Source: a bacterium
GTDB taxonomy: Bacteria > SM23-31 > JAUVVT01
Assembly: GCA_030616165.1 (NCBI GenBank)
Contig: JAUWXV010000183.1
Coordinates: 1 to 7,556, forward strand
DNA: 7,556 nucleotides
Direction: 5' to 3'
The position numbers and the translations under genes are program-made. The notes beneath the pieces were generated by a model. The model saw nothing but the letters and a program-made list of their open reading frames with translations, did not search any database and was not told where the DNA came from. Shown piece by piece: positions 2,263-7,462 of the stretch (its first letter is position 1; the number at the start of each line of letters is the position of its first letter).

Positions 2263-2275
2263 TATTTCTTGACAA
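2263..2275 (+). repeat. Right copy of the 13-bp direct repeat
   Basis: Identical to 1893-1905 (TATTTCTTGACAA). Together the copies bracket the ABC relic at a distance of 370 bp. Confidence 0.55.
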
Positions 2276-2297
2276 AACAATATTTTTGTATTATATT
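2269..2297 (+). promoter_or_regulatory. Strong sigma-70 promoter of the FliM-peptide gene
   Basis: A perfect TTGACA (2269-2274), a 17-bp spacer and TATATT (2292-2297, five of six matches). Transcription should start near 2304, leaving an AT-rich leader of about 95 nt before the ATG at 2400. This is the best promoter in the window. Confidence 0.75.
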
Positions 2298-2399
2298 GTT
2301 AACAGAGATAAATTATTGTAAATAAAGAAAATAATTTAAAGGAATACATTAAATAATATAATTAATTCATTTTAAAATCAGTTATTATAAAGGATTGAT

Positions 2400-2699
2400 A
2401 TGGCTGATTTATTGAGTCAAAATGAGATTGATAATCTTTTAAACTCTACAATTACGGCTGACGAAACATCTACGGAAACTGTTGAGATTACTAAAGAAAA
2501 AGTCCAAATCAAAATGAGAACTTTTTCTTTTAAGAAGAATAAGAATATTCGTTTTTTATTCCCCTATCAATCACCAGTGATAAAAAGGGGAAATTTTCTT
2601 TTTAATCCAGATCCAGATAAAGAAAATGATGAAAATGAAGTTGTTGTCAGATGTTTAAAAAATTATGTTGAGTATTTGAAACATAATAGAAATCTTTAA
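2400..2699 (+). CDS. Small protein with a FliM/FliY-type N-terminal CheY-binding peptide
   Basis: A protein of 99 residues that opens with MADLLSQNEIDNLLNS. Residues 5-14 match the LSQ(D/E)EIDxLL motif at the start of flagellar switch proteins FliM and FliY, the short helix that binds phosphorylated CheY. The rest does not look like FliM: there is no middle CheC-like domain and no SpoA surface domain, and a full FliM is over 300 residues. Residues 20-36 are acidic and Thr/Glu-rich, 38-52 basic, and 70-80 acidic (DPDKENDENE), suggesting a flexible chain with a short helix at the end. AAAGGA lies 5 nt before the ATG. It has its own strong promoter and terminator, so it is expressed as a single gene. 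Alternatives are a truncated fliM that became a gene, or an unrelated protein sharing the motif. The motif is what I see; CheY binding is inference. Confidence 0.8.
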   Translation: MADLLSQNEIDNLLNSTITADETSTETVEITKEKVQIKMRTFSFKKNKNIRFLFPYQSPVIKRGNFLFNPDPDKENDENEVVVRCLKNYVEYLKHNRNL

Positions 2700-2717: not shown

Positions 2718-2754
2718 AAAAGGCATATCCATTTGGGGATATGCCTTTTTTTTT
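2718..2754 (+). terminator. Strong rho-independent terminator of the FliM-peptide gene
   Basis: A 13-bp perfect stem (2718-2730 with 2737-2749, core GGCATATCC/GGATATGCC) with a 6-nt loop and nine T (2746-2754). It follows the stop codon by 18 nt, closing a one-gene transcription unit. Confidence 0.92.
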
Positions 2755-4009: not shown

Positions 4010-5284
4010 TTAATATATCTTGATATTGATTCTGTTTTTAAAAGTATCAAGGTCGATTATATCTCTGTCATAATCATCAATATCACCTTTGTTTATAGTA
4101 AACTGAACATTCCCTACTTTTCTTTCTTTTGTAGCAAGAGAACTTGATATTATCAATATTTCAACCCTTTCATTATCCTTCATTTCCGTCAATGTAGAAC
4201 CAAAGTCCGCAAAAATCTCCGAGATTAAGTCTGTTAATTCCTTAACCTTTTCTTCGACACTTTTTTCTTCTATTTTTGGAGTATTTATAGTAGAAAAACC
4301 CTGTGCATTCGGCACAGCTCGGAATATTTTAACTTCAGATTTAATCTTTTCTTTAACTTCTTCCAATTTTTCCTTTGCTTTTTCGATTTCTTCCCTGGAC
4401 TTTTCAAGTTGTTCTCGTAGTTTATCGTATTCGATTTCTATATAAGATTCAACAGCATCACCAGTTTTTCTATTTATTATAACATTAACTCTGGAAAAAT
4501 CTAATCTATCAAGGTTGATTGTAAAAATGGTCCCCAGACCATTTATGTAAATTCCCTCAGTTTGATTTCTTGATATTCTATTGTATTTATTTCCAATCTC
4601 TGATTCAATAATCGATTTCAGAATATCTATCCTTTTATACATCTCTTTGAGAGCATACTGCGGTTTTGAAGTATTTTTAATTCTGTCTTTCAACTCTGCA
4701 AAATTTAATAAATCCCTTTTATAATCATTTAGCCATCTTTTTTCAACCGTTATAATAATGTTTGAATCTTCAACGCCAAGATTTTTTTCAAGCGTTTCTT
4801 TATATCCGCTTGGAACTTTACAGACAACGGTAATGCGGTCATCGGATTCAAGCCCTTTAATTGCTCCTGCATAATCGGTCAGAAATCCGATTATTGAATT
4901 AGTTAATTCTTCCAATATCTCTTCTTTCTTTTTGTCTCTCTCTTTCTCGAGTTCTTCTCCTTGGTATTGTTTTGTGAAATCAATATTAAAAGATTTATAA
5001 ATTGCAAAATATGGGTAAGTATCTAAAGAAGGAGAAGTAATAAAAACCACACCATATCCATCAACGAATATTCCTGAAGTATTGGTGCTTCTTATTGGTA
5101 AAATTTCTTTATCGTATTCTGTTAAAATTGTATTTAATATGTTCTCCATAATCCTTAAGTTCTTCCGCATTTTAATATAATCGACATTCCTTTCATATTG
5201 CATTGCCGAGATAACTGAAAATATTACTATAGATAAAGAAATTAAAATTACGATAAAGAATTTAATATTTTTTAAGATTTTCAT
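4010..5284 (-). CDS. Signal-anchored extracytoplasmic protein made of a tandem duplication plus coiled coil
   Basis: An unrecognised protein of 424 residues. Residues 8-27 are a hydrophobic N-terminal helix after a Lys-rich start, so it is anchored in, or exported across, the membrane. The rest is an internal duplication: 43-203 resembles 217-420. Three anchors align in order: a glycine motif (G71 IFVDGYGVVF and G244 IYINGLGTIF), a helix (EELTNSIIGFLTDYAG at 125 and KELTDLISEIFADFGS at 348), and an acidic end (WLNDYKRDLLNFAELKDRI, 184-202; DIDDYDRDIIDLDTFKNRI, 401-419). The second copy has an insert of about 40 residues (283-320) rich in Glu and Lys, a clear coiled coil; the first has a shorter Lys/Glu stretch near 110-127. 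The start is supported by GGGAGG 5-6 nt upstream. It is the last gene of the sigma/anti-sigma operon, 56 bp after the anti-sigma stop. A role in sensing or modulating the envelope signal is inferred from context only. Confidence 0.88.
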   Translation of the reverse strand: MKILKNIKFFIVILISLSIVIFSVISAMQYERNVDYIKMRKNLRIMENILNTILTEYDKEILPIRSTNTSGIFVDGYGVVFITSPSLDTYPYFAIYKSFNIDFTKQYQGEELEKERDKKKEEILEELTNSIIGFLTDYAGAIKGLESDDRITVVCKVPSGYKETLEKNLGVEDSNIIITVEKRWLNDYKRDLLNFAELKDRIKNTSKPQYALKEMYKRIDILKSIIESEIGNKYNRISRNQTEGIYINGLGTIFTINLDRLDFSRVNVIINRKTGDAVESYIEIEYDKLREQLEKSREEIEKAKEKLEEVKEKIKSEVKIFRAVPNAQGFSTINTPKIEEKSVEEKVKELTDLISEIFADFGSTLTEMKDNERVEILIISSSLATKERKVGNVQFTINKGDIDDYDRDIIDLDTFKNRINIKIY

Positions 5285-5340
5285 TTTATCCTCCCATTTT
5301 AAAATTTTTTTGACTTTTTTAATAAGATTATTTAAAAAAA

Positions 5341-6015
5341 TTATTTCATAAGATTCTCTTCTGCGAGATAAACTAATCTTCCAATAAGTTCATCATTTTC
5401 TCTGAATTTTTGAGCGGTTACAGTGCTGAAAAGTTCAATATTTTCCCCAACGAACAGCATATCTGATTCTCTTTGTCTCTGTATCTCCTGAACCAACTGT
5501 GCAAGCATAATATCTCTTTCTTGTTTTATCCTATCCTCGCTTGCTGCAACTACTTGCAGTATGAGGTTTATTGTCTCCTGCTGGTTCTGCATAAGTTTTT
5601 CCAGGAATTCATTTTCAACTTTATCTACTTTTCCCTTTCCAAAAATGCCCGTACTTATTGAAACTCCGGATTCGTCATAATTAAACTCGAAGTTTACGAG
5701 AGATAAAACTATCATCACAGCAGCCGCCACTCCTGCCAGAATGTATCCTATTCTTATCGGTTTAAGCGATTGTGGTCTGAAATATTCTTTTATTTTTGAA
5801 ATAATGGATTGTTTTCCCTCAACAAAAACAAATTCCATCTTTGGAGATTCTACCTCCCATTTTTTGAGAATATTCCTCTCACGTATTAATAAACCGATTT
5901 CTTTTTTACATTCCCGACAGGTTTTAATGTGTTGTTTTAAAATTTTGGTTTTATTTTCGTCGAGTTCATTATAAATAAAAGCGATTAAATCCTTTTTATT
6001 AATAGAACAACTCAT
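5341..6015 (-). CDS. Anti-sigma factor with zf-HC2 zinc finger and one membrane helix
   Basis: A membrane protein of 224 residues that likely holds the partner sigma factor inactive. The cytoplasmic N-terminus has the anti-sigma zinc-finger pattern: C3, then H29-x3-C33-x2-C36 (HIKTCREC). A linker follows, then a membrane helix at about 89-108 (IGYILAGVAAAVMIVLSLVNF). The outer part (about 130-224) is rich in Gln, Glu and Ile and looks almost entirely helical, unlike short-tailed relatives, so it may be the sensing domain. The start is supported by AAGGAGGT ending 10-11 nt upstream, inside the end of the sigma gene; only 3 nt separate the two genes, typical of a coupled sigma/anti-sigma pair. 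Cleavage by site-1/site-2 proteases is the usual release mechanism, but nothing here proves it. Confidence 0.93.
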   Translation of the reverse strand: MSCSINKKDLIAFIYNELDENKTKILKQHIKTCRECKKEIGLLIRERNILKKWEVESPKMEFVFVEGKQSIISKIKEYFRPQSLKPIRIGYILAGVAAAVMIVLSLVNFEFNYDESGVSISTGIFGKGKVDKVENEFLEKLMQNQQETINLILQVVAASEDRIKQERDIMLAQLVQEIQRQRESDMLFVGENIELFSTVTAQKFRENDELIGRLVYLAEENLMK

Positions 6016-6018
6016 ATT

Positions 6019-6606
6019 TTAAAATACCTCCTTATCTAAATTTAATTTTTTAAAGGTAGTTTTAATGTTTTTGAGTGCATAATACATCCTTGACTTTGCC
6101 GTATTTTCAGAAATTTTTAGAATCTCTGCTATTTCCCTGAATTTTAAGCCCTGATATTCTTTCAAAATCAAAACTTCCTTCTGTTCATCGGACAGACTGT
6201 TTACTGCACTGTTTATAATTTCTCTTATATCTTTTTTAATTATATTTTCTTCAAATTCTGGCTTAACGTCAGCTGTATCTTTTAAAACAGGTTCATTTTT
6301 ACTGCTTATCTGGTCAAGAGAAGAGTGTTTTCTTTTCTTTCTTTTTTTCAATTCATCTTTACAGAGGTTAACAGCAATTCTGTAAATCCAAATTGAAAAA
6401 CTTTCATTATTTTTCAGTTTTTTGAGATTTTTGTATGCCTTTATAAATGTATTCTGAGAGATGTCTTTTGCATCCTGCTCATTCCCAATATACCTGTAAG
6501 CCACTTCATATACGGGAATTTGCCACCTCTTTACGAGAAGATTAAAAGCATATGAATCTCCACTGAGAAATCTACTTATATATTCTTGTTCTGGAGAAAT
6601 CCCCAA
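6019..6606 (-). CDS. ECF-type RNA polymerase sigma factor (sigma-70 family, RpoE-like)
   Basis: A sigma factor of 195 residues containing only the two ECF domains. Region 2 covers about 10-85: the helix with DAKDISQNTFIKAYKNL recognises the -10 box and binds core polymerase. Region 4 covers about 135-188, with LSDEQKEVLILKEYQGLKFREIAEILKISENTAKSRMYYALKNIK-type sequence whose helix-turn-helix reads the -35 box. A basic linker (KKRKKRK, about 86-93) and an acidic stretch lie between. The start is a TTG at 6604-6606 with GGAG 5 nt upstream; upstream codons are open but offer no ATG. It leads a three-gene operon with the anti-sigma and the duplicated extracytoplasmic protein, so it likely drives envelope-stress or similar genes, usually including its own promoter. 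Confidence 0.95.
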   Translation of the reverse strand: MGISPEQEYISRFLSGDSYAFNLLVKRWQIPVYEVAYRYIGNEQDAKDISQNTFIKAYKNLKKLKNNESFSIWIYRIAVNLCKDELKKRKKRKHSSLDQISSKNEPVLKDTADVKPEFEENIIKKDIREIINSAVNSLSDEQKEVLILKEYQGLKFREIAEILKISENTAKSRMYYALKNIKTTFKKLNLDKEVF

Positions 6607-7099: not shown

Positions 7100-7462
7100 A
7101 ATCCTGAAAATAAAAAATTTGTTTTTCTCACGGATAATGAACTTACATTTACCCATACTGGAGGGTTAGTTTATAAGGATTATCTTGAGTTCAGCAGAGG
7201 AGCAGATTTGCTGATTCATGATACTGAATTTACAGAAGATGAATATGTTAAGACAAGGACTTGGGGACATTCTATTTATACCGATGCACTTCAATTGGCT
7301 TTGGAGGCAAATGTAAAAGAATTTGGTTTATTTCATCATAATCATGAAAGAACGGACTCCGAACTTGATAAAATTGTGAATCATTGTATGGGGATTATAG
7401 AAAGTAAGAAATCTTCATTAGAATGTTATGCTGTGCAGTCGGGAATGGAAATTAAATTATAA
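7100..7462 (+). pseudogene. C-terminal half of a metallo-beta-lactamase-fold hydrolase (5'-truncated)
   Basis: The frame is open from just after the stop at 7097-7099 to a TAA at 7460-7462. It carries the second half of an MBL-fold hydrolase: KFVFLTDNEL (bridging metal Asp in TDNE), then GADLLIHDTEFTEDEY, TWGHSIYTDALQLALEA and VKEFGLFHHNHERTD with the last metal histidine. This pattern resembles MBL proteins of the cyclic-nucleotide-phosphodiesterase-like type. The first half, which holds the HxHxDH metal-binding loop, is missing, so it cannot be active alone. The only starts in frame are late ones such as TTG 7208, without a ribosome site. It is in the same frame as the small ORF upstream and separated by one TAA, which one base change from GAA could have produced. 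Confidence 0.8.

Follow-up and report, generated by a model that had tools for sequence, protein, structure and literature searches.

Phosphorylated CheY (CheY-P) usually exerts its effect through direct docking on FliM or FliY, and the locus considered here raises the question of what a short protein that begins with the FliM-type docking peptide could be: a remnant of fliM, a free decoy of the motor site, or an adaptor with a second binding partner. The gene lies at positions 2400..2699 on the + strand of the window, the term used here for the entire 7556-base contig that was analysed, which belongs to a 3.74-Mb genome (G000) that comprises 343 contigs and is 90% complete.

The gene, its expression signals and its relationship to FliM

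The reading frame opens with an ATG and encodes a 99-residue protein with the N terminus MADLLSQNEIDNLL (full reading MADLLSQNEIDNLLNST...NRNL). A ribosome-binding site, AAAGGA, was located at 2389..2394 (+), 5 nt ahead of the ATG. Further upstream, a sigma70-type promoter, TTGACA-17-TATATT, spans 2269..2297 (+); a site of such quality is found in ∼2.5% of composition-matched sequences of equal length. Downstream, an intrinsic terminator consisting of a 13-bp stem and a T run occupies 2718..2749 (+) and folds with -18.9 kcal/mol (z -5.1). The initial annotation had described a compact unit rather than debris, equipped with precisely these three signals, and this description is supported by the conservation of promoter and terminator and by the selection on the gene. 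Only the word "perfect" for the promoter had to be given up, given that 11 of 12 positions agree and the second hexamer reads TATATT instead of TATAAT.

The nearest relative of the protein is an orthologue (G001_C339, 59% identical) from another genus of the same family. Upstream of this gene the promoter site and its spacing are identical to those of the window gene, the terminator arms AAAAGGCATAT/ATATGCCTTTT are common to both, and the peptide is the same at 16 of 16 residues; the body, the start and the reading frame are also conserved, and the linker carries an in-frame indel. The two loci likewise share a gene order that includes a kinase-like gene downstream, the gene for a 424-aa protein, and genes for a putative anti-sigma factor and an ECF sigma factor. 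Comparison of the coding sequences gave a dN of 0.33 and a near-saturated dS of about 2.1 (dN/dS about 0.16), and the pN/pS ratio resembles that of three of four neighbouring genes. At the level of codon substitutions, these values indicate that the window gene is under purifying selection.

Three segments can be distinguished in the protein. The FliM-type, putatively CheY-binding peptide MADLLSQNEIDNLLNS (residues 1-16; 2400..2447, +) was recognized by hhalign, by identity with the orthologue and by AlphaFold, which places a helix at residues 7-18. It is followed by a variable, polar and predicted disordered linker (residues 17-44; 2448..2531, +), recognized from the alignment, low pLDDT and the in-frame indel, and by a conserved body (residues 45-99; 2532..2696, +) with the pattern F-Y-x-SPVIK ... 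NP ... VVVR-x-L-x-NY, recognized from alignments and AlphaFold. The models of two family members concur: a helix at the N terminus leads into a disordered linker, after which come a small hairpin and a final helix at the C terminus. In the window protein, the body is predicted as a beta-hairpin and a helix at residues 86-98. With their low pTM (0.33 and 0.29), the two models do not establish a fold for the body. A search of solved structures returned only weak chance matches to SAM lyases and capsid proteins (E above 0.3), and none for the peptide.

The relationship to FliM was found to be confined to the N terminus. Profile comparison of the family with FliM by hhalign aligned residues 1-23 (E 5.1e-9, probability 95.9%), and the FliM model TIGR01397 matched the window protein with an E-value of 7e-4 and six of ten family members overall. 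By contrast, the body showed no similarity to FliM in the profile comparison (probability 0.2%). The EIDxLL core of the FliM peptide is kept, and the peptide of the window protein is nearly identical to the N terminus of the FliM encoded by the same genome. In FliM, the EIDALL motif and its helix form the CheY-P site (PMC9126983; PMC7595845). The resemblance exceeds chance, and residues 1-23 are, on this profile evidence, homologous to FliM.

A Pfam scan of the window protein gave no family match, and the FliM middle domain (PF02154) and the C-terminal PF01052 are absent from it and from all aligned family members. The genome encodes a separate, intact FliM of 336 aa, whose gene adjoins motB- and fliL-like genes and a FliN-domain gene. 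FliY of Bacillus subtilis, a second CheY-P-binding switch protein besides FliM, also bears an LSQxEIDALL peptide (PMC7595845). It differs from the window protein in its CheC-like and FliN domains; the 99 residues gave no CheC hit and likewise lack PF01052. In G000, the peptide is absent from the start of the FliN-domain protein whose gene lies near fliM. Given that the FliM match is limited to the peptide, that no Pfam family fits and that the genome has an intact FliM of its own, the protein is neither a truncated FliM nor FliY. A recent truncation of fliM, named beforehand as the result that would overturn the idea of a stand-alone peptide, was ruled out by the separate intact gene and by a body unrelated to FliM. 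Thus, the earlier view of a FliM-type peptide without the FliM body proved correct, and the suggestion of a captured fliM fragment fits the first ∼23 residues but not the rest of the protein.

Other features of the window were also recorded. A tRNA-Met(CAT) gene (1518-1591) is directly preceded on its 5' side by an excisionase-like gene of the helix-turn-helix type (115-369) and a tyrosine integrase gene (ending at 1466), and the region 115-1591 probably marks an end of an integrated element. An ABC-transporter ATPase fragment at 1933-2157 resembles MlaF by eye, with no Pfam hit; given that the orthologous region of G001 has MCE-like and lipoprotein genes upstream of the short gene, the operon is seemingly truncated in the window. 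The operon at 4010-6606, conserved in G001, encodes an ECF sigma factor, a putative anti-sigma factor with a weak zf-HC2 match and the 424-aa protein, which gave no confident family match. A broken gene at 7106-7459 covers the last 118 residues of a metallo-beta-lactamase-like protein; the version in G001 is intact, and the two are 69% identical.

Distribution and architecture of the family

A search among relatives of the window's genome yielded homologues of equal length, and searches with a profile of the family identified homologues in each of the six genomes compared from this little-known, flagellated phylum (E down to 1e-31). Each contains one to three copies besides full-length FliM, and two or more copies are present in five of the six. 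Among 380 genomes outside the phylum the profile found no homologue, its matches being only to the N-termini of full-length FliM. A further scan with the FliM peptide as pattern returned 22 named genomes, in each case through full-length FliM genes only, and a search for the body elsewhere in the six genomes recovered only known members. An origin from phages or plasmids was considered and rejected, as tblastn gave no match in either collection; a PHROGs search produced a single weak match, in one family member.

Alignment of 11 members revealed the same architecture throughout, namely the peptide, a linker of variable sequence and a body of ∼45 residues. The peptide core QxE-I-D-x-L-L is conserved, as are SP..K, NP and V of the body, with S58, P59, K62, N69, P70 and V83 invariant among the 11; the linker varies. 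The window protein has all of these elements, including the FliM peptide and the VxVxxLxxY pattern at the end of the body. A twelfth member, G000_C147 (L029 6955-7173), has the body without the FliM peptide and a TTG start after GGAGG. The short architecture, including residues 17-99, whose lack of conservation had been named beforehand as grounds for dismissing the gene, is thus kept in six of six genomes. Judged by this comparison, the 99-aa protein is a conserved member of a small, phylum-specific family and not debris. Chance resemblance in a random open reading frame, which the lack of a Pfam family might suggest, is refuted by homologues in six genomes and by the FliM profile match, and its probability is negligible.

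The pattern of conservation also bears on the possibility that the protein is a sink or competitor for CheY-P, i.e. a free copy of the motor site that would lower the CheY-P available to FliM, with the body serving stability or dosage only. Such a role would accord with a peptide nearly identical to the N terminus of the FliM of the same genome and with a strong promoter dedicated to the gene. However, a second invariant segment would be superfluous in a pure decoy, and here SP..K, NP and V match the peptide in degree of conservation; moreover, in G000_C147 the body is present although the peptide is missing. We therefore regard a sink as unlikely.

Promoters of the sister copies and chemosensory genes of the relatives

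Sites resembling the published sigma28 consensus, TAAAGTTT-n11-GCCGATAA (PMC2859248), were observed upstream of several family genes. A strict form, TAAR-N14/16-NCCGATA within 300 nt upstream, is present at 5 of 12 family genes (G000_C168, G001_C421, G003_C33, G005_C266 and G002_C245) versus 0.05 expected; the corresponding Poisson p of 1.7e-9 is post hoc and optimistic, given that the motif was spotted first and then tested on the same sequences. A sixth gene, G004_C245, has a single mismatch (CAAG for TAAG). With a looser sigma28 score, three TAAG-type sites were not separated from background, whereas the stricter motif count did separate. An independent check was provided by flagellin genes, 15 of 20 of which in these genomes are preceded by TAAAG...CGAT[AT] versus 0.1 expected. 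In one fixed-spacing form, the sigma28-type pattern occurred 65 times in the six whole genomes, compared with 20 for a reversed control. Flagellin-domain genes (L202-L221) number three to six per genome.

The sigma28-type site belongs to the second copy of each genome (five strict, that of G004 with one mismatch) and is absent at the window copy. The window gene and its G001 orthologue have no sigma28 site upstream and carry the sigma70-type promoter instead; copies of this type in general have a housekeeping-type promoter or no recognized one. A clean division of the copies into two clades was not upheld, tree support being too weak (60/81). Given this weak support, the labels class A (no sigma28 site, to which the window gene belongs) and class B refer to promoter type and neighbouring genes rather than to phylogeny.

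In G002 and G004, two genera of one family, the non-sigma28 copy and a CheY-like receiver gene that retains its phospho-acceptor residues are divergently oriented neighbours. The short-gene copy of G005, a member of that taxonomic family as well, has no receiver gene beside it. The orthologue of the receiver in G001 is found downstream of an MCP gene and a gene for a CheA bearing three CheW domains, and G002 and G004 contain corresponding CheW-MCP-CheA clusters without a receiver. In G003, the receiver orthologue follows a GAF-type histidine kinase, the domain type being judged by eye. As the pairing is restricted to two genera of a single family, it is suggestive yet may reflect one event. 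The CheA at L149 700-3453 has Hpt and three CheW domains with no PF02895 match; its neighbours are a receiver and a short MCP, and G002 and G004 have related CheA genes.

These arrangements invite the view that the protein is the output adaptor of a separate, non-flagellar pathway, in which an MCP-CheA-receiver system would act through it on some target that is not the motor. The pairing of receiver and short gene in G002 and G004, the receiver orthologue within the MCP-CheA operon of G001 and the receiver-less CheW-MCP-CheA clusters of G002 and G004 all favor it. Nevertheless, the sister copies carry flagellar-type sigma28 promoters, the G003 orthologue of the receiver sits with an ordinary histidine kinase, and the short gene persists in G000 despite decay of the operon there, so that a purely non-flagellar role appears rather unlikely.

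The initial annotation noted correctly that the window contains no flagellar gene. Flagellar genes are nevertheless present elsewhere in G000, comprising fliM, adjacent motB/fliL-like genes, a FliN-domain gene and six flagellin-domain genes. In the same genome no CheA dimerization domain, no CheW and no intact MCP were detected. A remnant of an MCP, 47 residues long with in-frame stops, lies at G000:C314:7646-7786 (L232 7643-7786), at the place clearly syntenic with the MCP-CheA-receiver operon of G001. To judge from this remnant, the linked chemosensory operon is decayed in G000, with flagellar genes remaining. A loss of CheA, CheW and MCPs from G000 as a whole is likely rather than proven, given that the genome is 90% complete.

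With the pathway apparently reduced, the window copy could be a drifting relic of a family that functions elsewhere. The missing CheA, CheW and MCP, the MCP remnant with stops and a third G000 copy without the FliM peptide would all fit such a history. Against it, the copy (C150) is intact, its peptide matches the orthologue at every residue, promoter and terminator are conserved, and its ratio of dN to dS is like that of its neighbours. A relic is thus quite improbable.

A proposed role in motility signaling

Among the proposed roles, that of a lineage-specific CheY-P-docking adaptor for motility signaling fits best, in view of the conservation of the second segment and of the sigma28-type promoters found at sister copies; we assign this reading roughly an even chance. 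The product would be a small, mostly disordered adaptor of a CheY-type output pathway. Its N-terminal FliM-type helix would bind a phosphorylated CheY-like receiver, as in FliM and FliY, and the variable linker would tether the bound receiver to the docking partner of the C-terminal segment (SPVIK ... NP ... VVVRSLxNY). This partner would most likely belong to the flagellar switch or otherwise be associated with the motor, and the complex may in turn affect motor rotation. Given that the linked chemosensory operon has decayed in G000, any receiver bound there would need a different kinase for its phosphorylation, or the gene may be a maintained leftover of a reduced pathway.

The proposed adaptor can be set beside known systems. 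Like FliM, the protein has an LSQxEIDALL-type peptide with an EIDxLL core within residues 1-23; unlike FliM, it joins this peptide to a different conserved body in place of the middle and C-terminal domains. CheF, the archaeal adaptor between CheY-P and the archaellum, parallels the proposed task of a lineage-specific link from CheY-P to a motor (PMC9126983). However, CheF, a large PH-domain protein that forms dimers, binds CheY at a different face and has no visible sequence relation to the family; neither its PH-like domains nor its C-terminal CheY-binding helices were found in the window protein, which has 99 aa, gave no Pfam hit and is mostly disordered in the models. FssF, an accessory C-ring protein of Caulobacter needed for chemotaxis, is likewise a lineage-specific link between chemotaxis and the C-ring (PMC11580411), but it is a FliN homologue, whereas the window protein has no FliN domain. 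The Cle proteins of Caulobacter, also lineage-specific, are further participants at the docking site on FliM (PMC5677366); they are CheY-like and act from the CheY side, whereas the window protein mimics the FliM side.

A more far-reaching version of the adaptor reading, which we put forward tentatively and consider somewhat doubtful, holds that the family frees the CheY-P docking site from the motor. A tethered FliM-side helix would deliver phosphorylated receivers, among them that of a dedicated MCP-CheA system, to the target of the SPVIK-NP body, with one copy built under sigma28 together with the flagellum and the other separately controlled.

In practical terms, short open reading frames of this kind should not be annotated as broken fliM. 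The family provides a testable handle on the diversification of motor control in uncultured phyla. If the proposal is true, the family would give CheY signals a docking element that is separate and portable, and its role in bacteria might parallel that of CheF in archaea.
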